Shown here in pieces: positions 20,977 through 43,564 of a stretch of 64,000 bases of DNA. The stretch spans positions 124,001 to 188,000 of the forward strand of contig CACXMZ010000006.1 in NCBI GenBank assembly GCA_902768975.1. The letters run 5' to 3'. The notes beneath the pieces were generated by a model. That model saw only the letters and a list, made by a program, of their open reading frames with translations, ran no database searches and was not told where the DNA came from. The translations under genes were made by a program, and so were the position numbers. The DNA is from an uncultured Coriobacteriaceae bacterium (GTDB lineage: Bacteria; Actinomycetota; Coriobacteriia; Coriobacteriales; Eggerthellaceae). The stretch's first letter is position 1. Each line of letters opens with the position of its first letter.

Positions 20977-21039
20977 ACACCGATACCAAAAACAGTTGCT
21001 AATTTGCTTGATGCCGTAAGAAGAGTCGAAGGTTTAATC

Positions 21040-24072: not shown

Positions 24073-24131
24073 GTTATGCTGGGCATATAGAAACATAACT
24101 GAATGCACGGCTACATTAAGGACGAAAATTG

Positions 24132-26945: not shown

Positions 26946-28343
26946 ATGGTTTTTAGCTCGCTTACATTTCTGTGTATTTTTCTCCCTCTTGTCTTTTTGG
27001 GGCATACGCTTCTGCCCTCAATGCGTTTAAAGAATGGTTTGCTTATTGTGGCAAGCCTGCTTTTTTATGCCTATGGCGAACCAATATACGTATTACTTAT
27101 GTTTGCATCTACGGTGGCAAATTGGGCCTTCGGGCGTGCTTTGGGAAGTTCGGAAGACAAGCAGAAACGAAGGATTATCCTGGGCGCCGCAGTAGTGCTC
27201 AACCTGGCTTTTCTCGCTGTATTTAAATACGCAAGTATGTTTGTGATGAACATTAATGCGATTCTTCCATTAGCTTTGCCAGACCCGCAGATTGCCCTAC
27301 CTATTGGTATTTCCTTTTATACCTTCCAGGCAATGTCTTACATTATCGATGTGTATCGTGGGCAAGTGCAGGCCCAGAAAAGCTACCCGCGTGTGCTGCT
27401 TTACATTAGTTTCTTCCCGCAGCTGATAGCGGGACCTATTGTGAAGTACCACGATATTGAAAACCAGCTTGTAGAACGCCATGCGACACTCGAAGATATT
27501 GCCCTTGGGTTGCGCCGTTTTTGCGTTGGACTGGCAAAGAAGGTGCTTATTGCAAATACTATGGCGGTCACTGTCGATTCGCTTTTTTCTGCCGATCCTT
27601 CTAGCGTAAATGTTTTAGTGGCGTGGCTTGCGGCGATTGCTTATGTCCTGCAAATTTATTTTGATTTTAGCGGTTATTCCGACATGGCCATTGGTATGGC
27701 TCGGATGTTTGGGTTCCATTTCAAGGAAAACTTCTGCTACCCTTATGCTGCCACCAGTATTAAAGAGTTCTGGCGGCGTTGGCACATAAGCCTGTCAACT
27801 TGGTTTAAGGAATACCTTTATATTCCTTTAGGGGGAAACAGGCATGGGCGCTTTCGCACTGTTTTCAACAAACTAATCGTTTTCTTCCTATGCGGCCTTT
27901 GGCATGGTGCTGCGTGGACTTTTGTAGTGTGGGGCTTAATCCATGGGTTCTTTTTATTGTTGGAAGAATATATACCTATTCGTAAGCTTCCGAAACCTTT
28001 GGGCTGGCTCTATACCTTGCTTGTGGTTACGGTTGCTTTTGTGCTGTTTAGGGCAGACACCTTTGCGCAGGGTGGATTGTTTATCCAGCAAATGTTTTCA
28101 GGTTTCCATTTTGAATATGCTTCAACGGCGCTGTTTATGCGGCAGCTTAATCCTGTGTTTGTGGTTACATTGTTCGTTGCCTTGTTCGCCGCGTTGCCTA
28201 TAGCGCCATGCTTGAAGGAACGGTTTGGCGAACGGCATGAACTGCGGGTGGTAAGTTTCGTTGCGTCATTAGTGCTGCTAGGGGTGTGCATATTGGCGCT
28301 TTCGGGCGGTGGTTACAATCCCTTTATCTATTTCAGGTTTTAG
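26946..28343 (+). CDS. MBOAT family O-acyltransferase (AlgI/DltB-like)
   Basis: The 465-residue polytopic protein belongs to the membrane-bound O-acyltransferase family and moves acyl groups from the cytoplasm to extracytoplasmic glycans. The N-terminus has VFSSLTFLCIFLPLVFLGH, typical of AlgI. The segment YFDFSGYSDMAIGMARMFGF and the catalytic histidine H320 in LWHGAAW follow. The next gene, seven bases on, encodes a DHHW/AlgJ-like partner. Such pairs O-acetylate exported polysaccharides or wall polymers. The target here is probably the polymer made by the neighbouring genes, which is inference. Confidence 0.93.
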   Translation: MVFSSLTFLCIFLPLVFLGHTLLPSMRLKNGLLIVASLLFYAYGEPIYVLLMFASTVANWAFGRALGSSEDKQKRRIILGAAVVLNLAFLAVFKYASMFVMNINAILPLALPDPQIALPIGISFYTFQAMSYIIDVYRGQVQAQKSYPRVLLYISFFPQLIAGPIVKYHDIENQLVERHATLEDIALGLRRFCVGLAKKVLIANTMAVTVDSLFSADPSSVNVLVAWLAAIAYVLQIYFDFSGYSDMAIGMARMFGFHFKENFCYPYAATSIKEFWRRWHISLSTWFKEYLYIPLGGNRHGRFRTVFNKLIVFFLCGLWHGAAWTFVVWGLIHGFFLLLEEYIPIRKLPKPLGWLYTLLVVTVAFVLFRADTFAQGGLFIQQMFSGFHFEYASTALFMRQLNPVFVVTLFVALFAALPIAPCLKERFGERHELRVVSFVASLVLLGVCILALSGGGYNPFIYFRF

Positions 28344-28349
28344 GTTGAC

Positions 28350-29882
28350 ATGGTTAGTGTGACTAAACAAAGCAATTCTTCCAGACGGTTGGCGAGTATC
28401 GAACTCGTCTTCATCGGGGTGGCATTAGCTATGATGCTCATTCCATTTATTGGTATGCTGTGGGCGCCAACAGAAACTACGACCGAAAATCGCGAACTAG
28501 CTGCTGTGCCAAAGCTTTTTACTCAGGACGGCGGTTTTAACGTCAATGTTTTAGACGATGCAGGTGCATATTTCGAAGATCATTTTGCTTATCGTAACAC
28601 TTTGGTTTCCGCTAACGCTTTCCTGAGGGCTTCTTTGGGTTCTTCTGCATCAGATTCTGTTGTGGTAGGTAAAGAAGGCTGGCTCTACTATACGGGGACC
28701 TTGCCCGACTATCTAGGGCAGTCGACCTTGAGTGACCGAGCATTGCGTAATATCGCTCATAATATGGCACTTATGCAAGGCTTTGCAAAAGCACACGACG
28801 CGCAATTTGTGTTTACGGTGGCACCAAACAAGAATTCTATGTACCCGTACTACATGCCTGAATACTATATTCAAACTACTCAGGTTGGGAACTGGGGGCG
28901 CTTAAAACCCTACCTCGATGCCTATGGGGTGAACTACGTAGACTTGTTCGAAGTACTGGGTAGTAATACTGAAACTCTTTATTACCGTCAGGACACCCAC
29001 TGGAATAACAAAGGTGCCCTCTTGGGTGGAAATAGTCTACTTACGTCTTATGGACTAGAGCCACTTTCTATTGAAGATAATATGTGGGTAGAACGCAATG
29101 ACTATATAGGTGACGTTGCAAGAATGCTCTATCCTTCTAATCCTACGCCAGAGCTTGCATACTATGCGCGGGGCTACAACGACGGGCCTTCCCAAAATGG
29201 TTCTTTGTGGGAATGGATACAAGGTAGTAGCGTTGAAGACGATTTCAGCCGTACTAAAAGTGCTGGTGAGGGGCACCTTGTTGTGTTCCGCGACTCCTTT
29301 GCTAACGCGCTTATCCCATATTTTTCAGCAACGTTTGCTGAATCAACTTTTACTAAGTTGGTGCCTTACGATGCGGCAACAATCAGCGTTCAAGAAGCAA
29401 ACTACGTGGTTGTTGAGCGCGCGGAACGACACCTGGACTACTTGGCTGCCAATGCGCCAATAATGCCAGCCCCTATGGTAAAGCTTGACGTGGATTTAGC
29501 TGATGCTGGTATGCAGTCGTTAGGTACAACGTTGCAAGTAATTCAAGATGGCGGCTATACCGTAATATCTGGAGAATTAGACGAGTCACTTTGGGACGAT
29601 GATGTAGATATCTATATTGAAGTACCGAGTGACGATGGACAAATACGCTTCTATGAAGCGAGCACTCTATCATCAATTGATAGTCCTTATAAAACGAGCG
29701 ATACTCAGCTACTTGATGAGCCAGAAGAAAGCATTAGCGCTATACAAGGGCAAGATAAACTAGAAAGTGACTGGGGCTATGTTGCCTACTTAGTTGGAGA
29801 TAGAGATTTTTCGGGTAAGACGTTGAAAGCAATTGCAATGAAAGATGGTAAATTGCTTGGCTATGCTTCGTTTACAATATAG
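28350..29882 (+). CDS. DHHW/AlgJ-like SGNH-type extracytoplasmic acetylation partner
   Basis: This 510-residue protein has one N-terminal membrane anchor (VFIGVALAMMLIPFIGML) and a large outside domain. Characteristic pieces are TENRELAAVPKL, YFEDHFAYRNTLV, GKEGWLYYTG and QDTHWNNKG (D215 and H217), and then FRDSFANAL, where Ser316 is the likely SGNH nucleophile. It should receive acyl groups from the MBOAT protein encoded directly upstream and place them on the glycan. The C-terminal ~130 residues look like an extra beta-rich domain of unknown role. Confidence 0.88.
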   Translation: MVSVTKQSNSSRRLASIELVFIGVALAMMLIPFIGMLWAPTETTTENRELAAVPKLFTQDGGFNVNVLDDAGAYFEDHFAYRNTLVSANAFLRASLGSSASDSVVVGKEGWLYYTGTLPDYLGQSTLSDRALRNIAHNMALMQGFAKAHDAQFVFTVAPNKNSMYPYYMPEYYIQTTQVGNWGRLKPYLDAYGVNYVDLFEVLGSNTETLYYRQDTHWNNKGALLGGNSLLTSYGLEPLSIEDNMWVERNDYIGDVARMLYPSNPTPELAYYARGYNDGPSQNGSLWEWIQGSSVEDDFSRTKSAGEGHLVVFRDSFANALIPYFSATFAESTFTKLVPYDAATISVQEANYVVVERAERHLDYLAANAPIMPAPMVKLDVDLADAGMQSLGTTLQVIQDGGYTVISGELDESLWDDDVDIYIEVPSDDGQIRFYEASTLSSIDSPYKTSDTQLLDEPEESISAIQGQDKLESDWGYVAYLVGDRDFSGKTLKAIAMKDGKLLGYASFTI

Positions 29883-30360: not shown

Positions 30361-32841
30361 ATGGCAGGGGGCGCAATGGCGGCTTTGCATAAATCTTTCT
30401 TGACGCTGATTGCCAGCCTTTTGCTGCTGGCCTTGTGCATGGTTTTGCCATTGAGTGCTTGGGCAGATGACTCTAAGAACGTCACGGCACCCCTTACTAC
30501 TGCTCCAAAGTCTACGGTAGATTCCCCTAATAAAGATCTTCCTGAAGGCGTTTACGTAATTACTTCTGCGTTGCGCGGTAACGCTAGTCTAGATGTTGCA
30601 GGAGCCTCAAATAAGAATGGTGCAAAAGTCCAAATCTATTCCGATAACTCGACACCTGCTCAACGCTGGCGCTTGGAGCCCGTTGACGGTGGTTTTTACC
30701 GCATTGTAAATGTGGGGTCTGGAAAAGTATTAGACGTTGCTTCTGGGAAGATGAAGCCTGGCACGAAGGTCCAGCAATATGCATGGAATGGAACACCAGC
30801 ACAGAAGTGGAAGATATCTTCTACTTCGGGTGGCTATGTTATTACTTCGGCACTTTCGAAAAATCTTGTGCTTGATGTACGTACTGGAAAGAAAAGCGAT
30901 GGCACCCAAGTCCAAATCTATTCAGCTAACGGTACTAAGGCCCAGGTATGGAGTTTAAAAGCCATTAATCCGGTTCTTTCGAATGGGGTTTATACCTTTG
31001 CCAACGTAGGGTCGGGCAAGCTTTTAGACGAAGCAAGCGGCAACGTAAACAGCGGCACTAATGTACATCAGTATTCATCTAATGGCTCCATTGCACAATT
31101 CTTCGCTGTTCAATACGACAAGAAAACGGGCTACTACACGGTATATGCCGTTAATTCTGGTATGGCGCTTGATGTTGCCAACGGCTCAGAGAAAAATGGC
31201 GCCAATGTTCAGCTTTATATGCCTAATGGTACGCTAGCTCAGAAGTGGGCAGTTGTTAAGAGCGGCAGTGCATACGTATTGCTTAATGCGGTATCTGGGA
31301 AAGCCCTCGACATTACCAAAGGCTCTACAAAGAACGGCGCCAATGTGCAGATATTTACGAGCAATGGTACAAATGCACAGAAGTTCCGTGCAAGCGCTGT
31401 AACAAATTGGCTGCCAGATGGTATTTATAATTTTGTTACTTCTAACAACCAAGGCCTTTCACTTAACGTTTCCAAAGCGGCAATGAAAGCAGGCTCAAAT
31501 ATAGAGTCCGCTGGCCGTATTGCAATGGCGTGGGAACAGAATTGGCTTATTCAACAAGACAAGGGCAGTCCTGGTTACTACACCATTAGGAATATGAATT
31601 CACGAATGGCTCTTTCGGTTAAATCAAACAATGCATCGAGTGGAGCTAATGTGCAGCAGGAAGCTTTGAAAGCTGGTAGCGCTGGGCAGCTCTGGAGACC
31701 GATACACACTCCAGGTGGCGTTATTTGGCAGTCAAAACTAAGCGGCGATTTCGTTTTAGACTTAGTAAAGGGTGGCAAGGTTTCAGGTACAAATGCACAA
31801 ATCTACGCGCGAAATAATACAATTGCCCAGAAATTCCGCATGAAAAACGAAGACCTTACTGACTTGCTTAAGAGTACTGCGTTTGTTATTCGTAACGTTG
31901 AGTCTAATAAAGTACTGGATGTGAGTAATGGATCGCTAAGCAATGGCGCATTAATTCAGCTGTACGAGTCGAATGGTACAGGTGCCCAGAAATTCCGCTT
32001 AAGCGCCAATGGAAGTGGCATGCATATAGTGAATGCAAATTCCAGTAAAGCAATTGATATTGACAGTGCAGGGAAGACTAAGATTCAGCAGTGGTCGAAA
32101 GGCAACGCCGTAAATCAACGCTTTGTAGTTAGTTTTGATACCAAGAGCATGACTTTCACTGTCAAGAGCACATTTACAGGGAAAATGTTTGATGGCACAG
32201 GTGGGAAGTTGAGTCAACAAGCTGCGTCGGGTAAAGATGCGCAAAAATGGATTTTGCAGCCAACAGAAGCAGACTATTTCCGTGTGTACTTGAACGCTGG
32301 CCATGGCTGGAACGACTACAACAATGGTGCCTGGGCTTCGGGTGCTACCGCCAATGGGTACCAGGAGGCAAACCTGACCTATGAATTATGCGGCATGATT
32401 ATTAAGATTGCCCGCGACCAGTATGGCCTAGACGTAGTGGATGGGCGCGACTATAGGCTTGCCTATTGGAATCGTTTGCCTAAGGCGGTTTCGACGGGCT
32501 GTTCGACCATCTTTAGCGTGCACTTCGATGCAGGCGGCGGAAGCGGACCCATGACCATGGTGGGCGTTGATGGCCGCCATCCGGCTTCGTTAACATTTGC
32601 CAACATAATGAGTAGGCACCTGAATGCGTCACTCCCAGCTCTTGCGCCACGCCGCATGTCTTACCGTAATGACATTACCTGCGTGAATGGCAGCATTCCG
32701 GCGGTGCTTGTGGAAGTCTGTTTTGTCGACAATTCGCGCGATATCAACTATTACCAAAATCGCAAGAATACCGTTGCCAAAGAGCTGGCTGCTGGCTTGT
32801 ATGAGGCTTCACAGCAAAAGTCGCTGCGCAAGAATAGGTAA
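30361..32841 (+). CDS. Secreted N-acetylmuramoyl-L-alanine amidase with twelve ricin-type repeats
   Basis: The 826-residue protein has a signal peptide (hydrophobic FLTLIASLLLLALCMVLPLS, cut near SAWA), a short linker, twelve QxW-type repeats in four triplets, and a C-terminal Amidase_3 domain. The zinc and catalytic residues are in place: His648 (LNAGHG), Glu669 (YQEANL), His721 (SVHFDAG) and Glu785 (LVEVCFVDN). It cuts the bond between muramic acid and L-alanine. ATG 30361 and ATG 30376 are both possible; the latter has AGGGGG at better spacing. Unlike the other two repeat proteins it lacks a long acidic stalk. It converges on the gene at 32854. Confidence 0.93.
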   Translation: MAGGAMAALHKSFLTLIASLLLLALCMVLPLSAWADDSKNVTAPLTTAPKSTVDSPNKDLPEGVYVITSALRGNASLDVAGASNKNGAKVQIYSDNSTPAQRWRLEPVDGGFYRIVNVGSGKVLDVASGKMKPGTKVQQYAWNGTPAQKWKISSTSGGYVITSALSKNLVLDVRTGKKSDGTQVQIYSANGTKAQVWSLKAINPVLSNGVYTFANVGSGKLLDEASGNVNSGTNVHQYSSNGSIAQFFAVQYDKKTGYYTVYAVNSGMALDVANGSEKNGANVQLYMPNGTLAQKWAVVKSGSAYVLLNAVSGKALDITKGSTKNGANVQIFTSNGTNAQKFRASAVTNWLPDGIYNFVTSNNQGLSLNVSKAAMKAGSNIESAGRIAMAWEQNWLIQQDKGSPGYYTIRNMNSRMALSVKSNNASSGANVQQEALKAGSAGQLWRPIHTPGGVIWQSKLSGDFVLDLVKGGKVSGTNAQIYARNNTIAQKFRMKNEDLTDLLKSTAFVIRNVESNKVLDVSNGSLSNGALIQLYESNGTGAQKFRLSANGSGMHIVNANSSKAIDIDSAGKTKIQQWSKGNAVNQRFVVSFDTKSMTFTVKSTFTGKMFDGTGGKLSQQAASGKDAQKWILQPTEADYFRVYLNAGHGWNDYNNGAWASGATANGYQEANLTYELCGMIIKIARDQYGLDVVDGRDYRLAYWNRLPKAVSTGCSTIFSVHFDAGGGSGPMTMVGVDGRHPASLTFANIMSRHLNASLPALAPRRMSYRNDITCVNGSIPAVLVEVCFVDNSRDINYYQNRKNTVAKELAAGLYEASQQKSLRKNR

Positions 32842-32853
32842 GGTATCCGGGCT

Positions 32854-34095
32854 TTATTCTTCGGGCGCGGCTTCTAGTTGCTCGTGCTTTGCAACAAGAT
32901 AGTCCACGATGCGCGTGGCGGCTTCGCCTTGGTGTTGCCAGCATTCATTTCGTGCTGCATCGCGCCCCGCTTGGAGGCTATCGTCTTTTAGGCAGCTTTC
33001 TATAAGCTCACTAATTCCATCGAGCTTATCCATGGAAAGCTGCTTGCCAATCTTTGGTAGAGTGGTAAAAGTCCACGGCTCCTCTTCAAGCCAACAGGCG
33101 TCGTAAGGCGCATTGTCGAAGGCGGGCTCGGTGTAAATAAGCGGCTTGTCAAACACAAGCGCAAAGTCGAAGATGACGCCTGAAAAATCCGAGATCATAA
33201 TGTCTGAGCGGTGCAGCACATCGAAGTTGTCGTTGTCGCGGTTCCATTCAAGCTGTTCGCTTTCGGGGTAGTCCGCCATGAGCTTATCCATGAGCTCTTT
33301 TTCGCTTTCAAAGGACTGGGGGTGGGGGCGCACAATAACGTGGTAGCCCGCTTCCAGTAGCGCGTCGATAATCTTGCCACCATACAGGCTTAGGATGGCG
33401 CTTTTGCCCCATGAGGGCGCAATGAGCACGGTTGTTTCGTGGGCTGGAACTGGCTCGCTCGCCTGAAGGCGGGCCTTAAGGTAGTCAACGTAGGTAAGCC
33501 CAACAATTTCTAGTTCTTTCTCCGGCAGGTTGCGGAGGCTTTCAAGCTTGCGAATCTGTTCAACCTGGAATTCGCCCGTAAGCAGAACAGCGTCGTAGTA
33601 GTCTAGGCCAAACATACGGTACATGGTAGCGTCACTAATGGCATGCAGAATGTGTACGTAGTACTTTACGTCGCGCGAACGCTTCCATTGGTACACGTCG
33701 AGGCCTGGGGTAGTAGCCAGGACCATGTCGGCTTTAAGCATATTAAGGTGCGCAAAAGCTTTGTTGCCTTCACCAATAAACTTACACTTCACGTGCTCGT
33801 AGGGCTTTTCTAAGGCAGGGTCGTCTGGCGAGGCAGTCAAGTAGTCAATATCTATGCCGCGCGCCTCAAATTCGTCGCAGATGGCTTCAAATACGTTCCA
33901 ATAGCGCTTACTTTCCGCAAAGATGATGTAGGGTTTTTGCGCGTTGTCGCCTTTTTCAGCACGGCCGCCACTGGCAATAAAGCGAAGCTTCACCGCTAAG
34001 TTGCGCAAGCCATAGACACCAGCGCTTATTAAACCAATAAGCAAGGTGAATAGCATGCTGCCAGTGCCAGGATCTATGTAGAAAAGAGGATTCAT
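32854..34095 (-). CDS. CDP-glycerol glycerophosphotransferase family protein (TagF/TagB-like)
   Basis: The 413-residue protein has an N-terminal membrane segment (GSMLFTLLIGLISAGVYGL) and a GT-B-type body. Conserved pieces are VLIAPSWGKSAIL, VIVRPHPQS and MISDFSGVIFDFALVFDKP, which match the donor-binding half of TagB/TagF enzymes. It should add glycerol phosphate or a related polyol phosphate to a lipid-linked polymer, using a CDP-linked donor. Since tarIJ are present, CDP-ribitol is also a possible donor. It is the last gene of a leftward operon, 15 bases after the second YidC-like fusion gene; its ATG follows GAAGG. Confidence 0.87.
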   Translation of the reverse strand: MNPLFYIDPGTGSMLFTLLIGLISAGVYGLRNLAVKLRFIASGGRAEKGDNAQKPYIIFAESKRYWNVFEAICDEFEARGIDIDYLTASPDDPALEKPYEHVKCKFIGEGNKAFAHLNMLKADMVLATTPGLDVYQWKRSRDVKYYVHILHAISDATMYRMFGLDYYDAVLLTGEFQVEQIRKLESLRNLPEKELEIVGLTYVDYLKARLQASEPVPAHETTVLIAPSWGKSAILSLYGGKIIDALLEAGYHVIVRPHPQSFESEKELMDKLMADYPESEQLEWNRDNDNFDVLHRSDIMISDFSGVIFDFALVFDKPLIYTEPAFDNAPYDACWLEEEPWTFTTLPKIGKQLSMDKLDGISELIESCLKDDSLQAGRDAARNECWQHQGEAATRIVDYLVAKHEQLEAAPEE

Positions 34096-34110: not shown

Positions 34111-36912
34111 TTACTCTTCGTATAGATACTTCCAATTGTTGATATCCCGAACATCGTCATGTACAGAAAACCACTGCCCTGGGTTAAAAGTATTGCCATT
34201 GTTTTCTTGCACAGACCATTCGGTTGAATACATAACATACTGTTCTTTTTCGTCCTTGTAATCGCTGCTAATTATATTGCCTGTGTAAGGATTTGTGGGC
34301 TTTTCAACGATGTCCTTAAATGCAAGTACGGGTGTATCTGCATTGGTCATAAAGGTGTCGTCAAAGCGGAATTCGGTACTGCCAAAGTCCTTTACCATAA
34401 GCAAGCAGTTAAATACCCTTGCGTCGCGCGATACCGTTTCATTGTTGTAGGGGCTAAATATATCGAAAACCATATCGTAGCCAAAAAAGCCGCCCCAGCT
34501 ATGGTCAGACACTAATATAATGCGCGTATTGTCGTATACATCGTTTTCCTTGAGATACTCGCACCATTCACCGATTTTGAGCATTGCGGCCATGTTAGCG
34601 TGATATGAAGTAATGAGATTAACAAGCCCGCCTTCTTTTTCTTCCTCAAATGAAAGAGTTTCGCCAGTTATGGTGCGGCGAATGCTGTGTGCGGCATCAT
34701 ATTCAGTGTTGTCTACTACGGTGTTCGGGGTGTATGAAGGTTCTTCTAGTAAGGTTGGCTCATGCGTTGTGTCATTTGCCATCACAAAAAAGTGATTAGT
34801 TGCGTTGGGGGAGATTTCGGTTATTTCTGGCATGTTGTCTAATACGGTGTAGGGCCGCATGAATAGCGTATTAACGCCCGAAGCTTTATTGGGGGAATAG
34901 ATAATTTGCGATGCTAGCTCGGTTGAATTGTAAGCACCTTGTTGGTAAATGCTAGGGCGAAAAGCGAGCGGGGCAATCTTGAACAAGCTGTAGCAGAAAA
35001 GATTGCGCGCTCTTTGGTCATTTGCTTTACCGCTTTGCCCTTCAGACTCAAATTGCTTGTTAAGGGAAGCTATTTGGGATGTTCTATACGCGTTAACATT
35101 TTCGATGCTGTCGTAAATACTTAAATCTGGTATCCACCCATAGCCTGCATAGGTAGGATCAAAAATGGTTACCTCGAATTCATTTTGGGCAAATATTGTT
35201 GGCATTACTTTAAGCGCTTCATTATGCTTTTCGGAAAGAGGCCGTTCGCTCTGTTCGTTTATCTGCTTTGGCCGATATTCGCTGCCGCCATATAAGGCAG
35301 GTGTTGCAACGTTGGTGATAGGACCATAAGAAAGCGCATTGGAATAGCACGTGAATCCTGAAAGCATTTCTTTGATCTGGGGTTTTTCTTCAATAAAGAA
35401 AGGAATAAAACCAGGAACCGCTCGGTCGAGCATGATTACCACAACGTTCTTGCCCTGCTTGCTTAAGTTGATGCTTGCTTTGGATGAATCATTTGCTGCA
35501 AGCTCTTCGTTCGATATTAAATCAATATTGCTTACTTCTTTGTTTATGCTTGCTGCACTATAGACAGAAAAGGCCACTATGGCAATGCATAGCGATGTAA
35601 AGGCAATGCGAGGAATGCTCTTTTTCTTGTTCCAACCAACAAAAACAATAGCTGCAATAAGAATGGCGGCAAGGCTACTCAGGAGTACTTCTATTGGTGC
35701 ATCGGTTGGCTCGTGGTCAAATAGGAGGTCTGGCGAGATATTGCCATAGTGCGTACCAAAAAAGAGGTAGCTAACAATAGCTACGATTGCAAGAACGATT
35801 ACGAGGAAAAGAAATATCGTTTTCCCTGTTGGCGTGGCAATCCAATAAAAAACTCCAAACCAAATAATGAAGGTACCGAGGGCAAGTGCGAGGGTAGTGG
35901 CTACATAGAGGAGGGGAGATTGGTAGTTGGTCACATCTATAAATTCAGATGGTGAAGACTGAATAACGGAAAGTGGTATGAGGAGTCCCGTGAGAAGCGC
36001 CAAGAAAAGGCAGGCAAACAAGAATGTTTTTGAATCTTCTTTGGAAGCCTGAGGGATTTTGGAGCGAATAGCCAGAGGCCGCTTCGCGGCTAGTTGCATG
36101 ATAGGCAGTTGGAGGCCCACGAAGAACAGAAGAAGGCTTACTATGCGTAAGGGTGAAGGCTCCATGCCACTTATAAAGAAGGCTATTGGAAGTGCAAGTC
36201 CAGTAATAGATGCCAGGACCGACAAGACTGCCTTTGGGTTTTTCAGCTTATAGAAAATGTTTTTAATCAAAGAGAATATGTTGTTAAGAGTCCAGTAGAA
36301 AACTAGGCCCGCTGGGGAGTTATAAAGCAGAATGAGGAAAATAGCTGCAATGCCATACGTCTGAATTTTGCTGGAAAGTGGAAAACCTTTCAGGTAGATG
36401 GCTGCTGAAACGATATTGATGAGCGTCATTATTATCGGGAGAATATTAATTGAAAGGCCTCCAAGCTGCAATAAAGCATCTGGGGCGCCCAGGTCGGGTA
36501 TGGGACCCAGCGAAGCACCGTGAATTAGTTTTAAGTTTGATAAGAAGTGATAGGCCGCAATAAAGAAAGGGATTTCGAGGAGGAGCGATATCGAACTCTT
36601 GAAAATATCAGTCTGTTTGTAGCCATTTTGACGATTGTAGGCCTGGAGCATCATAAAGCGTTCGTCGCCCTTGAAAGTCTTTTTGATATGGTCAGTCCAG
36701 GGTTTCATAGCTAAAGTGCGGTCGCGTTCTTCTTCCTGCATGGCATCGGCCCTGCGGTAGAGGGGAAGCACCAGGAAGTTCATGGCAAGGCTGAGCACAA
36801 GGATTGATATAACAGGGTCACCGAGTAAGCGGTAAGCAATTGCGTAGATAACTTCAAAGAATAGTTCAAGAGGCCCAATAAAAAGCTTATAGAGTATGGA
36901 AAGAATGCTCAT
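34111..36912 (-). CDS. YidC/Oxa1-like domain fused to an alkaline-phosphatase/sulfatase-fold domain (copy 2)
   Basis: This 933-residue protein joins two units. Residues 1-235 follow the YidC/Oxa1 pattern: leading helix, charged loop (KPWTDHIKKTFKGDERFM), LLLEIPFFIAAYHFLS, and the closing YWTLNNIFSLIKNIF. About five more membrane segments follow. Residues 485-880 form an outside alkaline-phosphatase-superfamily domain with probable metal ligand Asp496 (VVVIMLDRAV), likely nucleophile Thr533 (TNVATPALYGG) and Asp803-His804 (LVSDHSWGG). LtaS and phosphoethanolamine transferases share this catalytic fold, so a phospho-group transferase acting on exported polymer is a reasonable inference. It lies 12 bases after its paralogue. 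Confidence 0.85.
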   Translation of the reverse strand: MSILSILYKLFIGPLELFFEVIYAIAYRLLGDPVISILVLSLAMNFLVLPLYRRADAMQEEERDRTLAMKPWTDHIKKTFKGDERFMMLQAYNRQNGYKQTDIFKSSISLLLEIPFFIAAYHFLSNLKLIHGASLGPIPDLGAPDALLQLGGLSINILPIIMTLINIVSAAIYLKGFPLSSKIQTYGIAAIFLILLYNSPAGLVFYWTLNNIFSLIKNIFYKLKNPKAVLSVLASITGLALPIAFFISGMEPSPLRIVSLLLFFVGLQLPIMQLAAKRPLAIRSKIPQASKEDSKTFLFACLFLALLTGLLIPLSVIQSSPSEFIDVTNYQSPLLYVATTLALALGTFIIWFGVFYWIATPTGKTIFLFLVIVLAIVAIVSYLFFGTHYGNISPDLLFDHEPTDAPIEVLLSSLAAILIAAIVFVGWNKKKSIPRIAFTSLCIAIVAFSVYSAASINKEVSNIDLISNEELAANDSSKASINLSKQGKNVVVIMLDRAVPGFIPFFIEEKPQIKEMLSGFTCYSNALSYGPITNVATPALYGGSEYRPKQINEQSERPLSEKHNEALKVMPTIFAQNEFEVTIFDPTYAGYGWIPDLSIYDSIENVNAYRTSQIASLNKQFESEGQSGKANDQRARNLFCYSLFKIAPLAFRPSIYQQGAYNSTELASQIIYSPNKASGVNTLFMRPYTVLDNMPEITEISPNATNHFFVMANDTTHEPTLLEEPSYTPNTVVDNTEYDAAHSIRRTITGETLSFEEEKEGGLVNLITSYHANMAAMLKIGEWCEYLKENDVYDNTRIILVSDHSWGGFFGYDMVFDIFSPYNNETVSRDARVFNCLLMVKDFGSTEFRFDDTFMTNADTPVLAFKDIVEKPTNPYTGNIISSDYKDEKEQYVMYSTEWSVQENNGNTFNPGQWFSVHDDVRDINNWKYLYEE

Positions 36913-36924
36913 TGGAATCTTACT

Positions 36925-39618
36925 CTATTCTTGCATCACTTTTACAGCGTCATGGTCATAGCCAATGTATTTCCAGTTGTGCGCTTTTGAAGTGTCCCCG
37001 TGTACGCTATACCAGCGTCCAGGCAAGAATACATTGCCGTTGTTTAAAGAAGTCGCCCAGTGTTCAGAATCAAGAACAAATTGCTTGGGGTCATTTTTGT
37101 ATGCGAATGAAATATCGTTTCCCGTGTATGGGTTAACTGGGTTGTCGATGAGTCCATCGGTAGCCATAACGGGTACATCGGCCGTGGTCATGAAATTGTC
37201 GTTAAATGAAAAGCCTGTCGCGCCAAAGTCTTTTTCCATAAGCAAACAGGTAAAGGCGCGAACGTCATAGGAATAAGACGCACCTTTGTCTTCGTTAAAA
37301 ACGCTAAAGCGCAAGTTTTTATCAAACACATAAGGCCAAGAATGGTCAGACGCGATTATGATGCGTGTGTTGTCATACACGCCTTGTTCTTTAAGGCAGT
37401 CAAACCATTGACCCAGTTTAAGCAAAGCTGCCATATTGATTTCGTAGAAGGTGGGCGTGTAATACAGGTCGTAGGCTTCTTCATCTATAAACTTGAGCGC
37501 ATTTCCTTTTTCGTCTTTGCGCTGGGCATGTTCTGCGTCGTATCTTGTGTTGTCGACCGAATTCATGGGTTCATAGGAAGGCTCTTCAAGAATTGTAGGT
37601 TCGTGCGTGGTGTTGTTAGACATAATGAAGAGCCTGTTTACATTTTCGCTCGAAACTTCGGTAAGCGCAGGAAGGCTGTCGAGCACTGAATATGATTCCA
37701 TGAAGTAGGGATTAGAGCCAATAGCACGTGAAGGACTAATCCAAATTTGCACAACGGGATCAACCGAATTGTAGCCTCCGCCTTGGTAGAGCGCTGGCTG
37801 AAGAACAGTGGGCGCAACCTTGAAGATTCCGTAGCAGAAAAGATTTCGAGCCTGTTCACTGTGCAGGTGTTCTTTGTCTTCAGTGGTTTTATAGTTGTTG
37901 TTATAGAAGTAACCATTCATGGTTACCCTGGCTTGAACCTTGGGGACGTCGTTGAAGATGCTTACATCTGGAATCCAGGCATAATTAGCATAAGATGGAT
38001 CAAAGAATGTTGTTTCAAAGCCTTGCTCAGAAAATAAGGTGGGCATAACTTTAAGCGCTTCGTTGTGTTTTACGCGAAGAGGAATGGTGTTGCGTTCATT
38101 CATTTGTTTGGGGCGATAGTCGCTGCCTCCATAAAGCGCCGGGGCACCCACATTGGTATGCGTGCCGTATGAAATGGCGTTGGTGTAAACCGTAAAGCCT
38201 GAAAACATTTCTTTAAGTTCGGGTTTTTCTTCTACAAAGTAGGGCAGATACTGGGGGATAGCGCGGTCGAGCATGATTACCACGACATTCTTCCCATTTT
38301 TGCTCAAGGGGATGACGGGGTCGTCTGTCTGTCGGGTGTTTTCAATGTTCTTTTTTATGGTGCCGAGTTCGCCATTAATAGTATTGGCGCTTATGCCAGC
38401 GCTCACGGCAAAGGCAACAATGAGGCAGAGATAGACGATGCGCGCAGCAGTGTGCTGCTTTTTCCAAGCTACAAACAGCAAAGCGGCGGCAGCCAGAACA
38501 ACTACAGCATTAATGACCATTTGAAGCGGTTCAATAACAGGCGGATAATCGTATTGAAGGTATGGCGTGAGGTTGCCATAGGTGGTTCCAAAAGCAAGGA
38601 AATTCACTATGCCAATCAGTATAAAGCACAGCAAAATAAAACCAAAAACGCTTTTACCCTTTGGGCTGGCAAGGCGATAAAACACGCCAAACCACAACAC
38701 GAAAGTGCCAAGTGCGAGGGCAAACGTTTCAGCAATAAACCACAAGGGAGACCGATATGCCGTTGGGTCAATGAATTCCGCTGGGGAAGCCTGGATAACA
38801 GTAAGTGGAATAAAGATGCCTATGAGAATCGCTGCAAATAAGCCGCCTAGAGCAAATGTTTTGTCGTCGGCCAACGTGGCTTCTGGAAAGCTAAACCAAT
38901 GCTTCGCCGCTGCTTTGTTTTTGCTTGTTGTAGTGCTGGCTGTGCCCCGAAGTTTATAGAAGATGTTCTTTGCGAGCGAAAATATATTATTCAATGTCCA
39001 ATAAAAGACCAGGCCAGCAGGGGAATTGTAGAGTAGCACAAGGAAGATGGCCGCTATTCCATAGGTCTGTATTTTGCTGGAAAGCGGAAAGCCTTTGAGG
39101 TAGATGGCAGCCGAAATGAGGTTAATGACCGTCATAAGTATGGGCAACAGATTAATGCTTAGGCCACCTAGTTGAAGGAGTGCGTCGGGCGCACCGAGGT
39201 TGGCGATGGGGCCGAAGGGAACACCATTAAGTAGTTTAAGGTTTGAAAGAAAATGGAAGGCCGCAATAAAGAAGGGGATTTCGAGCAACAGCGAAATGGA
39301 GCTTTTTAAAATGTCGGTTTGCTTGTAACCATTTTGGCGGTTATAGGTTTGGAGCATCATGAAACGCTCGTCGCCCTTGAAGGTTTTCTTAATGTGGTCG
39401 GTCCATGGCTTCATGGCTATGGCTAGGTCGCGCTGTTCTTCTTGCATAATGTCTGCCCTGCGATAAAGCGGCAGGACCAAGATATTCATGGCAAGACTTA
39501 AGAAAATAATGGCAAGAGCAGGGTCACCCAGGGCGCGGTATGCCACTGAATAGACCACTTCAAAAAAGAGTTCGAGTGGCCCGATAAAGAACTTATATAG
39601 TAGAGCGAGTATATCCAC
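36925..39618 (-). CDS. YidC/Oxa1-like domain fused to an alkaline-phosphatase/sulfatase-fold domain (copy 1)
   Basis: The 897-residue paralogue of the 34111 protein has the same architecture: YidC-like residues 1-235 (YWTLNNIFSLAKNIF), extra membrane segments, then an alkaline-phosphatase-fold domain. Catalytic features are Asp451 (VVVIMLDRAI), Thr488 (TNVGAPALYGG) and Asp758-His759 (IASDHSWPY). The Asp-to-Thr spacing is 37 residues in both copies. The first Thr of the motif is kept in both while the second is replaced here, which points to the first as nucleophile. It starts with GTG 39618 and leads a three-gene operon. The pair diverged after duplication, most strongly in the outside domain, so they may act on different groups or sites. 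Confidence 0.85.
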   Translation of the reverse strand: MDILALLYKFFIGPLELFFEVVYSVAYRALGDPALAIIFLSLAMNILVLPLYRRADIMQEEQRDLAIAMKPWTDHIKKTFKGDERFMMLQTYNRQNGYKQTDILKSSISLLLEIPFFIAAFHFLSNLKLLNGVPFGPIANLGAPDALLQLGGLSINLLPILMTVINLISAAIYLKGFPLSSKIQTYGIAAIFLVLLYNSPAGLVFYWTLNNIFSLAKNIFYKLRGTASTTTSKNKAAAKHWFSFPEATLADDKTFALGGLFAAILIGIFIPLTVIQASPAEFIDPTAYRSPLWFIAETFALALGTFVLWFGVFYRLASPKGKSVFGFILLCFILIGIVNFLAFGTTYGNLTPYLQYDYPPVIEPLQMVINAVVVLAAAALLFVAWKKQHTAARIVYLCLIVAFAVSAGISANTINGELGTIKKNIENTRQTDDPVIPLSKNGKNVVVIMLDRAIPQYLPYFVEEKPELKEMFSGFTVYTNAISYGTHTNVGAPALYGGSDYRPKQMNERNTIPLRVKHNEALKVMPTLFSEQGFETTFFDPSYANYAWIPDVSIFNDVPKVQARVTMNGYFYNNNYKTTEDKEHLHSEQARNLFCYGIFKVAPTVLQPALYQGGGYNSVDPVVQIWISPSRAIGSNPYFMESYSVLDSLPALTEVSSENVNRLFIMSNNTTHEPTILEEPSYEPMNSVDNTRYDAEHAQRKDEKGNALKFIDEEAYDLYYTPTFYEINMAALLKLGQWFDCLKEQGVYDNTRIIIASDHSWPYVFDKNLRFSVFNEDKGASYSYDVRAFTCLLMEKDFGATGFSFNDNFMTTADVPVMATDGLIDNPVNPYTGNDISFAYKNDPKQFVLDSEHWATSLNNGNVFLPGRWYSVHGDTSKAHNWKYIGYDHDAVKVMQE

Positions 39619-39722: not shown

Positions 39723-40700
39723 CTATGCAGCGCTTTCACTAATATTGTTACTATCGGTCGTAGCTTCAGGTTTTCCGTTCGAAAAGAGTTCCTTTAGGTC
39801 GGCCGCTGCCACGATGGCGCCAGCAATAATAACGAACGCACAAACTATGCCGCGCAGGTCGGGCATGGTGCCCAGAATTATAAGGCCCACCGGGATAGCC
39901 CAAGCAGAGTAGGTAATGTTGAGTGCCATGCTCTTGGCTGCACCAATGCGGTCGATGGCCTTGTAATAGAACAGGTAAGAAATGGTACCGATGAGCGAAG
40001 CCAGCATAATAACAGGCATGGCAGAAGATGCAGCCGCATGCAGGGTAACACCCCAACCACCCAGGAGGGGAAGGATAATACAGGCGTAAGTTACAGCCGA
40101 AGTGGTTTGGCGGATTTGCAGGCAGCATTCATCGTCGACGTTTTCGCCCTGCAAGGCCCATTCAATAATAACGGCTTCCGTGCCCCAGCCAACAACGGTA
40201 ATGAGGGCACCCACAATACCGAGTGTCCAGTTGCCAGAAACGCTTTCATCGGGCACCCAGCCCAGCACGGCAACGCCAATAAGGCAGGCAACCAGGCCAA
40301 GCCATTGGTACCAATGCATCTTGGTCTTCAAGAAGAAGACCGCAAGGAAAGCCCCGAAGGCGGGGAAAAAGGCTGAAATCGCTGCAGTATAGGCAGGACC
40401 AATATTGTTGATAGCCATTACGTAGCCACTCATGCCAAAAGGTCCGCCAATAAGGGCTGCGAGCACCACAAACTTGCCGCGCTTACTAGTGAGTAGCTCC
40501 CAGGTTTTCCGAAGCTTCTTGCGCACTGCCATATAGATGAACATGTAGATGGCCGACATGGCGTCATGCAAGAAAGTGCTGGTAAAAGAAGCAAGGGCAA
40601 TGGCCGTGGGGGTGTCTAAAAACACCACGTTGCTTAAGGCCAGGCCAAGAATGACCGTGTCGAACGCCCAGGTGAGGGCTGCGCCAAAACCGTAAATCAT
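39723..40700 (-). CDS. licB: Choline permease, EamA/DMT superfamily (LicB-like)
   Basis: The 325-residue protein has about ten membrane helices in the duplicated EamA pattern. Examples are FGAALTWAFDTVILGLAL at the N-terminus and GGPFGMSGYVMAINNIGPAY near residue 90, with AFLAVFFLKTKMHWYQWLG further on. LicB proteins import choline for phosphocholine synthesis. The gene starts two bases after the stop of licA, which makes them one translationally coupled unit. Family membership alone would not give the substrate; the licA neighbour and the LicC-like fusion on the other side make choline the best call. Confidence 0.85.
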   Translation of the reverse strand: MIYGFGAALTWAFDTVILGLALSNVVFLDTPTAIALASFTSTFLHDAMSAIYMFIYMAVRKKLRKTWELLTSKRGKFVVLAALIGGPFGMSGYVMAINNIGPAYTAAISAFFPAFGAFLAVFFLKTKMHWYQWLGLVACLIGVAVLGWVPDESVSGNWTLGIVGALITVVGWGTEAVIIEWALQGENVDDECCLQIRQTTSAVTYACIILPLLGGWGVTLHAAASSAMPVIMLASLIGTISYLFYYKAIDRIGAAKSMALNITYSAWAIPVGLIILGTMPDLRGIVCAFVIIAGAIVAAADLKELFSNGKPEATTDSNNISESAA

Positions 40701-40702
40701 TT

Positions 40703-41596
40703 TTACTCCTGTTCTTCAAGCAGCTGTTTTGCGTGCTCGCCGTATTCGGATGCAAAGTTGTGATAAATGCCTTCCAGTGGCCCCACAGGTTCGCCCGTTT
40801 GTGCCATGTAGAGTGCCCAAACCAACCAATGGAAACTAATAACTTGGATATAGGCCACGCAGTGAATGAGTTCTTCGCGCGTGAGCGGGCGCTGGAAATA
40901 TAGCTCGAGGAAATGCAGCGTGTCTTCGTAGGTGTAGTCGGAGCAGCATACAAATACGGCAAGGTCGCTGGCGTAGTCGCTCATGCCAGCATATTCCCAG
41001 TCAATCAAGTCCATGCGTCCGTCGTGGACGAGGAAGTTCGGATCGTAGAAGTCGTTGTGGCACAGTACGGGTTCCAACCCGTCGGCCTTCACAATGGCGT
41101 TGTAGTGTTCGGCCATTTCGAAGAGCTCTTCGAAGTTGTCGTACCTGTTGCGGAATTCGGACTGCAGAAGTGCCATCTGTGCGAGCGTGTCTTCATGCAT
41201 GTCTTTGACGTAGTCAATTTTGGCACCAGACCCGTGGAGCTTGCGCAAAAGTTCCAGTGCCTGAACCAGGTGCGATTCGTTATGGCAACTAAAGGGTTCG
41301 TCGCAGTCTACATAGTGGCAGATTTTCCAGCCAACTTGGGGGTCCTCAAAAATAAAGGTGCTGTCTATGTCTAATTCGGCAGCAATTTTCTGGCATTCAG
41401 TTTCGTATTTACGATTAGTGATTTTATCAGTACCTACGCCGGGGTGACGATAGGTGTACTGTTTTCCGCAAATTTCGATACGCCAGGTCTTGTTGGTAAG
41501 CCCGCCTGTTAGTTGGTCAATCCAGGTAATATCTTCAGGCCTGCAGGAAAGGACCTGGCAAATGTTATCAACTGCTTCTTGTGGGTATTCAAGCAT
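40703..41596 (-). CDS. licA: Choline kinase (LicA-like)
   Basis: A 297-residue aminoglycoside-phosphotransferase-fold kinase that phosphorylates choline with ATP. The catalytic motif is VLCHNDFYDPNFLV (His180-Asn181-Asp182) and the metal-binding aspartate is Asp199 in LIDWEYAGMSDYASDL. The N-terminal LTGGLTNKTWRI is the nucleotide-binding loop. I chose ATG 41596, which follows AAAGGAA; an upstream extension of 56 codons is rich in Lys/Arg and would cover the operator region. Phosphocholine made here would be activated by the LicC-like domain encoded at 41786 on the other strand. Confidence 0.9.
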   Translation of the reverse strand: MLEYPQEAVDNICQVLSCRPEDITWIDQLTGGLTNKTWRIEICGKQYTYRHPGVGTDKITNRKYETECQKIAAELDIDSTFIFEDPQVGWKICHYVDCDEPFSCHNESHLVQALELLRKLHGSGAKIDYVKDMHEDTLAQMALLQSEFRNRYDNFEELFEMAEHYNAIVKADGLEPVLCHNDFYDPNFLVHDGRMDLIDWEYAGMSDYASDLAVFVCCSDYTYEDTLHFLELYFQRPLTREELIHCVAYIQVISFHWLVWALYMAQTGEPVGPLEGIYHNFASEYGEHAKQLLEEQE

Positions 41597-41675
41597 GATA
41601 CGCAAAATTCCTTTTCGTTTTCGTTTGCTTCGCTTCTTATGGAGCTGTTCAATTATCGTTGAAAACTTTGAAAAA

Positions 41676-41721
41676 TGAACAAAAATGTTCAGCATTATTA
41701 TTTCGTTCACAAAAAATGAAC
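41676..41721. promoter_or_regulatory. Paired palindromic operator-like sites between divergent lic genes
   Basis: Two inverted repeats share the half-site TGAAC/GTTCA: TGAAC-n6-GTTCA (41676-41691) and GTTCA-n7-TGAAC (41705-41721). A looser TTCAA/TTGAA pair lies at 41648-41663. They sit in the 189-bp gap between licA and the fusion gene, where one regulator could control both promoters. Confidence 0.6.
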
Positions 41722-41726
41722 GTAGC

Positions 41727-41754
41727 TTGGGGCGCCTGAATAATGCGTTATAGT
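41727..41754 (+). promoter_or_regulatory. Promoter of the winged-helix/LicC/LicA fusion gene
   Basis: TATAGT (41749-41754) has TTGGGG (41727-41732) 16 bp upstream. The palindromic sites end just before the -35 box, where a bound protein could activate or block. Confidence 0.5.
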
Positions 41755-41785
41755 AGGCTTTCATTGAAGCAGAGGGCGGGAGTAC

Positions 41786-43564
41786 ATGCTTTCACGTCAG
41801 GAATTTGCAGTTTTATATGAATGCTTGCGGGGTAAGACTCCTTCGCAGCGCGAGCTTGTGGAAGCGACGGGCTATTCTTTGGGTGCCATTAACACCGTGG
41901 TCAAGGCCCTCAAAGAACAGGGCCTCCTCGACGAAGCGAATGCGCTCACCGAAGCGGGCATGAAAGCCTTGGAGCCCCATAAGGTCGACAATGCCATAAT
42001 CATGGCAGCTGGTATGTCCACGCGTTTTGCGCCCATTTCCTACGAAAAGCCCAAGGGTGTGCTCACTGTAAAAGGCGAAGTGCTCATAGAACGCCAGATT
42101 CGCCAGCTCAAAGAAGCGGGCATCGAAGACATCATTGTTGTCGTAGGCTACAAGAAGGAATGCTTCTTCTACCTGGCCGAAGAATTTGGTGTCGAAATAG
42201 TCGTCAACGCCGAATATGCCATGCGCAACAACAATTCAACCATCATGTGCGTGGCGGACCGCCTGGGCAACAGCTTCCTGTGTTCTTCCGACAACTACTT
42301 TGTTGAAAACCCCTTTGAACCCTACGTTTACGACGCCTATTACGCAGCCGTTTTCGACGAAGGCGAAACCAAGGAGTACTGCCTTCACACCCGCGGCAAG
42401 GAAGACCGCATCGTAGGCGTTTCTATTGGCGGGCACGACGAATGGGTCATGCTCGGCCATGCGTATTGGGACCGCACGTATTCGACCGAATTCGTGCGCA
42501 TCCTGCGCGACATTTACAACAAGCCCACCACGGCGGACATGCTGTGGGAAGACATCTATATTGAATACCTGCCGCAGCTTCCCATGGTTATGCGCAAGTA
42601 CGACCCCGGCGTAATTTGGGAATTCGATTCGCTGGCAGAACTCCAGGAGTTCGATCCTGCCTTCGTCGAAAATGTAGACTCTGAAATCATCGACAATATC
42701 TGCACGCATTTTGATTGCGAACGCAGCGGAATTTCCAACATCGTGCCCATAAAGCAAGGCCTGACCAATTTGTCTTTCCGCTTCGACGTAGCGGGGCAGA
42801 CCTATGTTTACCGCCACCCAGGGCCCGATTCGGGTGCCTTTATTAACCGGGCGAGTGAAACCGCAAGTGAAAAAGTAGCCCATGAACTGGGCCTGGATGA
42901 CTCTTTTGTTTTCGAAGACCCGCAAGCAGGCTGGAAGATTTCCCGCTTCATTGAAAACGCGAACAAGCTTGACTATGCGGATGAAAAGCATGTTGCGGAT
43001 GCCATTGCTACCTTGCAAACCTTGCACACATGTACCGCCGATACTGGTTTTAACTTCGACCATTTTGCCGCTGCAGAAGAAACCATTGCCAAACTGGGCG
43101 CCCAAGAACGCACCATGTTCAAGGACTTTGAAAGCCTGCGCTCAGACATCGCGCAGCTCGACAAGTTGGCCAAGGAACACGGTGCACGTACGTGCTTGTG
43201 CCACAACGACTTTGTGGCTTCCAATATTTTGGTGGCAGGCGGAGAGCTCCACGTCATCGACTGGGAATACTCTGCCATGTCGGACTATGCTTCTGACCTC
43301 GCGGTTTTTATTACCTGTGCCCCAAACTTTAGCTACGAAGACGCCCTACAGGTGCTTCATCTTTACTTCGGGCGTGAACCTTCCGAAGAAGAGCTTTTCC
43401 ATTGCATAGCATCCATCGCTGTGGTGAGCTTTTTCTGGTTTGTGTGGGCGCTTTACAAAGACGAACATGAAGAAGCAATGGGTGAATCGCTCTACCAGTG
43501 GTACAAGAATGCAAAGGAATATGGACGCAGAGCACATGAAATGGCGCAGGATTTTGCCTATTAG
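41786..43564 (+). CDS. Winged-helix / phosphocholine cytidylyltransferase (LicC) / choline kinase (LicA) fusion
   Basis: The 592-residue protein has three parts. Residues 1-65 are a winged helix (RELVEATGYSLGAINTVVKA). Residues 68-290 form a nucleotidyltransferase with IIMAAGMSTRFAPISYEKPK, the LicC loop that activates phosphocholine with CTP. Residues 300-592 form a LicA-like kinase with CHNDFVASNIL (His473-Asn474-Asp475) and Asp492 in VIDWEYSAMSDYASDL. It could make CDP-choline from choline in one polypeptide, and its winged helix could sense or control this locus. GGGCGGGAG precedes the ATG. A separate licA lies across the divergent promoter. No LicD-type transferase is in the window. Confidence 0.9.
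   Translation: MLSRQEFAVLYECLRGKTPSQRELVEATGYSLGAINTVVKALKEQGLLDEANALTEAGMKALEPHKVDNAIIMAAGMSTRFAPISYEKPKGVLTVKGEVLIERQIRQLKEAGIEDIIVVVGYKKECFFYLAEEFGVEIVVNAEYAMRNNNSTIMCVADRLGNSFLCSSDNYFVENPFEPYVYDAYYAAVFDEGETKEYCLHTRGKEDRIVGVSIGGHDEWVMLGHAYWDRTYSTEFVRILRDIYNKPTTADMLWEDIYIEYLPQLPMVMRKYDPGVIWEFDSLAELQEFDPAFVENVDSEIIDNICTHFDCERSGISNIVPIKQGLTNLSFRFDVAGQTYVYRHPGPDSGAFINRASETASEKVAHELGLDDSFVFEDPQAGWKISRFIENANKLDYADEKHVADAIATLQTLHTCTADTGFNFDHFAAAEETIAKLGAQERTMFKDFESLRSDIAQLDKLAKEHGARTCLCHNDFVASNILVAGGELHVIDWEYSAMSDYASDLAVFITCAPNFSYEDALQVLHLYFGREPSEEELFHCIASIAVVSFFWFVWALYKDEHEEAMGESLYQWYKNAKEYGRRAHEMAQDFAY

Follow-up and report, generated by a model that had tools for sequence, protein, structure and literature searches.

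Tandem fusions of a YidC-type domain with an alkaline-phosphatase-fold ectodomain, a new combination of known folds associated with phosphocholine genes

The window examined here, the whole 64,000-nucleotide stretch from an uncultured Coriobacteriaceae bacterium, contains an operon on the minus strand in the order licA, licB, fusion A, fusion B and a TagF-like gene, with intergenic gaps of 2, 104, 12 and 15 bp, respectively. licA is the first gene of the operon and the TagF-like gene the last listed. According to the window's list of open reading frames, fusion A encodes 897 aa from a GTG start and fusion B 933 aa from an ATG start, and the earlier note's description of two adjacent proteins of about 900 residues was thus borne out at exact coordinates. 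Both have the same layout, in which a YidC-fold domain is followed by transmembrane (TM) helices (about five; seven in B) and an alkaline-phosphatase-superfamily ectodomain; B is 54% identical to A overall, 83% in the YidC part and 53% in the ectodomain. The features of the locus are:

32854-34095, minus strand: TagF-like partner gene (413 aa), a YIDPGTG TM segment plus a Glyphos_transf domain (Pfam)
34111-36912, minus strand: fusion B, tandem paralogue of A (open reading frame, Pfam)
36925-39618, minus strand: fusion A, YidC-like part, five TM helices and alkaline-phosphatase-fold ectodomain (open reading frame, Pfam, model)
36928-38301, minus strand: ectodomain of A, residues 440-897, with D451, T488, H672, D758 and H759 (conservation, model)
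38329-38886, minus strand: five TM helices of A, residues 245-430, leading from the YidC part to the ectodomain (model helices, hydropathy)
38944-39618, minus strand: YidC-like part of A, residues 1-225 (60KD_IMP, E 2e-19; model pLDDT 91.7; Z 17.6 to BhYidC2)
39484-39486, minus strand: codon of N45 of A, at the position of the canonical YidC groove Arg (N 107, S 6, A 2 of 116)
39723-40700, minus strand: licB, choline permease, within the fusion operon (PDB 7b0k LicB, E 6.5e-30)
40703-41764, minus strand: licA-type choline kinase, first operon gene (APH/Choline_kinase; related to the LicA part of 41786-43564)
41786-43564, plus strand: wHTH-LicC-LicA fusion gene divergent from the operon, phosphocholine cytidylyltransferase plus choline kinase (PDB 1jyk, E 1.1e-33; 4r77, E 9.5e-26)

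Several lines of evidence identify the N-terminal part of the fusions. Pfam 60KD_IMP matched residues 35-221 above its cut-off (E 4e-19 and 2e-19 in the two fusions), NCBIfam yidC_oxa1_cterm gave 68.9 and 70.7 bits, under its 84.3-bit cut-off, and the closing motif noticed earlier as YWxLNNIFS was found as YWTLNNIFS in both proteins. YidC chains ranked first in a PDB search with a profile of 14 homologues. They were absent from the PDB list of the whole-protein model because the ectodomain filled that list, which was resolved by modelling the YidC part alone (61 sequences; pLDDT 91.7, pTM 0.84). That model matched BhYidC2 (3wo7) with Z 17.6 over 210 residues, E. coli YidC with Z 17.3 and OXA1L with Z 12.8, and unrelated folds with Z below 6. 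The earlier note had treated an N-terminal part unlike YidC as fatal to its idea; as modelled, this part is a true YidC fold.

In the model of A, the helices that follow span residues 249-277, 292-316, 319-342, 364-387 and 391-428. Pfam Sulfatase matched residues 443-759 of A above its cut-off (E 3e-6) and residues 488-804 of B below it (E 1e-4), and the whole-protein model (pLDDT 77) placed residues 441-897 of A in the alkaline phosphatase superfamily, with Z values of 19 to a phosphonate monoester hydrolase, 18.1 to PbgA/YejM, 17.6 to LtaP and 16.9 to both LtaS and MCR-1. The Pfam matches and the models of both parts agree with the combination of insertase-like and sulfatase-fold domains that had been proposed, and the Asp, Thr and Asp-His residues said to be kept (D451, T488, H672, D758 and H759, numbered as in the 897-aa protein) are invariant across 116/116 homologues. 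Both ectodomains have the fold and the Thr/Asp/Asp-His active site of the LtaS/EptA/YejM-like phosphotransferases. A sulfatase was ruled out, the nucleophile being Thr in all 116 rather than a Cys or Ser for formylglycine.

The TagF-like enzyme reported for the operon was recovered as a Glyphos_transf match of 46.9 bits (E 2e-12) against a cut-off of 22.1. YIDPGTG occurs in 71/71 members of the partner family, near the start of the gene products where these are complete, and the RPHP and D303/S305 residues are kept. The partner scored 14 bits against the host's canonical TagF and 99-112 bits against the TagF parts of a mirrored system described below.

Relatives of the fusions were found by an alignment scan of genome contigs, a single-protein scan having given no match. 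At least 554 stretches of named bacterial genomes encode such relatives, from which 78 loci were kept for locus counts; nearly all of these are from Clostridia, among them Lachnospiraceae and Oscillospiraceae, plus Schwartzia and three loci from Eggerthellaceae. They contain 105 fusion genes, in tandem runs of up to about six. Within Coriobacteriia, 18 of 398 genomes matched, about 16 with this family and two with weak matches that resemble ordinary YidC. An assembly artefact was ruled out, as the fusions recur in more than 70 loci, also in tandem. The tandem pair is therefore not unique and belongs to a widespread family, carried by hundreds of gut bacteria; the search for the architecture and its neighbours that had been recommended thus yielded a large family, with a TagF-like gene within 200 bp of the fusion in 55 of the 78 Clostridial/Eggerthellaceae loci. 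One homologue (L041, 4505-6879 and upstream), beside an intact TagF-like partner, has in-frame TAA and TAG codons and is likely a pseudogene.

A mirrored arrangement was found in Coriobacteriia, in which a YidC-TagF protein of about 650 aa is followed by a YVDPS (YxDP)-LtaS-like protein. YidC-TagF occurs in 72/396 Coriobacteriia genomes, and of 20 loci checked, 19 have the LtaS-like protein next to it. The open frame that contains the YidC-TagF match is 1373-1463 residues long in nine genomes, and three such proteins, when read, were each one continuous YidC-TagF-LtaS-like chain. Between the two systems, the LtaS-like parts match each other (14-41 bits) and do not match the host's own LtaS. 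These cross-matches of the TagF and LtaS-like parts indicate that the same two specialised enzymes are present in both systems and that the YidC module changed partner. The mirrored system is new here, and its enzymes resemble the window's enzymes more than they do the host's TagF or LtaS; an hhalign comparison of the YxDP segments of both systems (E 0.013, probability 3.3) is only suggestive of their homology. Most of the YidC part is gone from the fusions of three genomes in two genera (G170, G179 and G234), all of which also encode YidC-TagF, as if in these few cases the YidC module were supplied in trans. The homologues at L042 (8490-10682), L043 (8675-10867) and L044 (3591-5981) keep the first helix without most of the YidC part and are without an adjacent TagF-like gene. 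No YidC-LtaS or YidC-TagF link was found in the literature searched.

The YidC groove differs between these classes. At the position of the canonical Arg, the fusion family has Asn, Ser or Ala in 115 of 116 sequences, one row being gapped, and never Arg, whereas Arg is present in 13/13 canonical Coriobacteriia YidCs and Lys in 10/10 YidC-TagF proteins. In a tree, these three YidC classes formed separate clades (support 0.99, 1.00 and 0.75). Canonical YidC is encoded elsewhere in 14 of 16 genomes examined; none was found in the other two, both fragmented assemblies (G342 and G375). With its groove Arg replaced, the YidC part does not read as a canonical insertase. Because it forms its own monophyletic group, lacks the Arg, has been swapped between partners and coexists with a canonical YidC, it probably has a role other than general protein insertion.

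The phosphocholine genes had been described as lying next door, which is true of the divergent licC-licA gene, but licA and licB sit inside the fusion operon itself. LicA, LicB and LicC were identified by match to solved structures, and their activities are established for their families. Genes of the lic type are present in 27 of the 78 fusion loci, in several of which LicC, LicA, LicB, the TagF-like gene and the fusion lie in one row, and in six loci they lie beside the mirrored system. Without regard to relatedness, LicC-LicA was found in 65/72 genomes that have the mirrored system and in 84/324 that lack it (odds ratio 27), and in 12/16 genomes with the fusion. The fusion is a new combination of known folds that is strongly associated with phosphocholine genes. 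LicD was not found in the lic-fusion operons, in 11 of 17 assemblies with lic genes and the fusion (drafts), in 7 of 10 with LicC, LicA, LicB and the fusion, or in the single-contig, 99% complete G163 and G134, where LicC-LicA stands beside the mirrored system. Among LicC-LicA genomes, either system was present in 19/29 without LicD and 49/120 with it (p 0.02), a weak association that ignores relatedness.

In the remaining 51 of the 78 fusion loci, no lic gene lies within the stretch examined; in those lic-less loci that were scanned, the operon neighbours are mostly housekeeping genes and revealed no second donor. Near the tandem fusions of L051 (817-3806) lie a TPP-enzyme gene and an NTP-transferase/Fe-alcohol-dehydrogenase fusion. 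We read the TPP_enzyme match as a phosphonopyruvate-decarboxylase-like enzyme. The two genes recall CMP-phosphonate logic (PMC6697681) and would suggest a CMP-phosphonate donor, and some operons may use cytidylyl-activated groups other than choline. Genes for a BCCT choline/betaine transporter, MTTB and URO-D lie between the lic-type genes and the TagF-like gene of L063 (3255-8643).

Next to the operon, three large wall-active proteins (glucosaminidase, transglutaminase-like and amidase; 21004-24027, 24129-26879 and 30361-32841) carry 7-9 ricin-B-type lectin repeats and, by analogy with choline-binding proteins, could be ligand-binding wall enzymes. Large DUF6541 membrane proteins (8136-10205 and 18868-20907) lie in the same surface-polymer region, and such proteins adjoin fusion homologues in other genomes (L042, L043 and L045). 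An MBOAT and AlgX-type SGNH pair (26946-29882) is likely a polymer O-acetylation unit. Directly before the window (G000, contig C6, 115-124 kb; L054), about 33 kb from the fusion, are canonical wall teichoic acid genes (TagF-type, TagD and an ABC transporter). An LCP (LytR-CpsA-Psr) gene lies downstream of the fusion in L119 (17103-18710), and L079, L123 and L127 have genes of 535-540 aa at the equivalent place.

Taken together, we propose, with a little less than even confidence, that the fusion and its TagF-like partner are one membrane machine that moves a small phospho-headgroup from a cytosolic CDP-activated donor to an outer polymer, the headgroup in lic-linked operons most likely being phosphocholine. 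First, LicB would bring in choline, LicA would phosphorylate it and LicC would yield CDP-choline. The TagF-like domain in the cytosol, whose CDP-binding half is retained, could then put the headgroup on a membrane carrier, after which the YidC-type part (groove Asn) and the YxDP TM segment might pass headgroup or lipid through the bilayer. Finally, the outer-domain Thr would accept the phospho-headgroup and hand it to a surface polymer, perhaps the host's own wall teichoic acid. The topology agrees with this: the YidC C-terminus is cytosolic, so that a fused TagF stays inside, while the LtaS-like domain, after an odd number of additional helices, ends up outside. Liposome experiments in vitro have shown lipid scrambling by YidC and Oxa1, which makes the passage step plausible (PMC10491306).

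The analysis shows which domains are present, their fold and conservation, the operon, the swap of the module between the two systems and the co-occurrence with lic genes, whereas donor, carrier, acceptor, direction and translocation are inferred. The relay is favoured by the YidC fold, the phosphotransferase residues, the adjacency of the TagF-like gene, the mirrored system, the co-occurrence with lic genes, the absence of LicD from some lic genomes, a groove residue specific to each class (R, K or N) and a YidC part that is the most conserved region (mean pairwise identity 61%; ectodomain 49%, linker helices 34%). Against it count the lic-less majority of loci, the weakness of the LicD association and the YidC-poor fusions of two genera, though all three of those genomes carry YidC-TagF. 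The host genome also encodes LicD and canonical TagF/TagD, so that the fusion is not the sole possible user of CDP-choline there, and we know of no TagF-family enzyme that uses CDP-choline.

One alternative is that the outer domain acts like LtaS on phosphatidylglycerol and the partner uses CDP-glycerol, while the lic genes act separately through LicD. The fold and catalytic set are as in LtaS/LtaP, the partner is a member of the CDP-glycerol transferase family, and TagD, TagF and LicD are all present in the host. However, the glycerol-phosphate site of Listeria LtaS is formed by His-353, Trp-360 and Arg-362 (PMC4192460), and the motif HGN...W.R, which we used as a proxy for it, is absent from 116/116 fusion homologues. 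Glycerol phosphate is thus not the favoured group, and the group transferred is probably not that of LtaS, although the test is not sharp, as the host's own LtaS-like protein does not match the strict pattern either. The term LtaS-like in the earlier note therefore stands for fold and catalytic residues but not for this site. Considering also the distance of the partner from canonical TagF and the LicD-less lic-fusion operons and assemblies, we regard this alternative as unlikely.

A second alternative, to which we give equally little credence, sees the YidC part as an insertase or chaperone dedicated to the fusion's own helices, the partner or a small membrane protein, without any headgroup role. 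The full YidC fold and its strong conservation would fit. A positive groove residue has been described as strictly conserved across all insertase homologues, yet the Arg of E. coli YidC is not always needed, its loss being tolerated when the neighbouring residue is polar or aromatic (PMC8920935). W207 of A lies where an aromatic residue makes that Arg dispensable, and this Trp therefore leaves room for insertase activity. On the other side stand the missing positive charge, the normal YidC of most genomes examined and a module that is joined to TagF-like proteins in one system and to LtaS-like proteins in the other, an odd trait for a general insertase. The earlier suggestion that this domain does not insert proteins accordingly holds for general insertion, where a role beyond it is probable, but not for every insertase or scaffold role. 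Still less probable is a YidC part that merely holds the TagF-like and outer enzymes together, since its groove, TM motifs and loops are kept above the level of the enzyme, which a scaffold need not do, even if the module swap and the fusions require docking at most and two genera have lost most of the part.

Returning to the proposed relay, its boldest element, that a YidC-type core was recruited as the membrane passage between CDP-choline with a TagF-like loader and an LtaS-like outer transferase, through a YidC/YxDP step, is put forward more tentatively than the relay as such. If true, surface phosphocholine would have a third route in addition to those of LicD and PptA, and this would be the first protein of the YidC family to handle lipid headgroups or polymer rather than protein. 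The fusion and its TagF-like gene are also candidates for the missing phosphocholine transferase of LicABC bacteria without LicD. YidC/Oxa1 proteins are insertases that scramble lipids in vitro; here a large natural family, in many gut Clostridia and Coriobacteriia, has their fold welded to teichoic-acid-type transferases in two mirrored arrangements, and whether it was turned to lipid or polymer traffic is now a testable question.

Compared with known systems, the YidC part has the five-helix core, cytosolic hairpin, P50 and Y/W-rich TM5 of YidC/Oxa1 proteins (BhYidC2, 3wo7; E. coli YidC, 6al2; OXA1L), but differs in its groove Asn/Ser/Ala, a four-residue insertion after TM1 (ADxxQ), an FKGDE hairpin motif and its joining to a phosphotransferase. 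As in LtaS/LtaP, EptC/MCR-1 and YejM/PbgA (Z 16.9-18.1), about five TM helices precede an outer domain with a Thr nucleophile and Asp plus Asp-His ligands; unlike these, the fusions have a YidC part in front, pair with a TagF-like gene and are without the HGN..W.R of LtaS. The partner shares the C-terminal CDP-binding half and the RPHP and D-x-S motifs with TagF/TarF/TarL (PF04464), yet it begins with YIDPGTG and a TM segment and its scores are 14 bits with the host TagF and about 100 with the mirrored system. LicA and LicB in the operon and LicC in the divergent gene recall the pneumococcal lic pathway, in contrast to which the operon is without LicD and has the TagF-like gene and the fusion where LicD would be expected. 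PptA, an enzyme of the alkaline-phosphatase fold, is not known to have a YidC part. According to PMC10434233 it is a lipid-donor pilin phosphocholine transferase and does not occur alongside the Lic pathway, whereas here the phosphotransferase and Lic-type genes share an operon.
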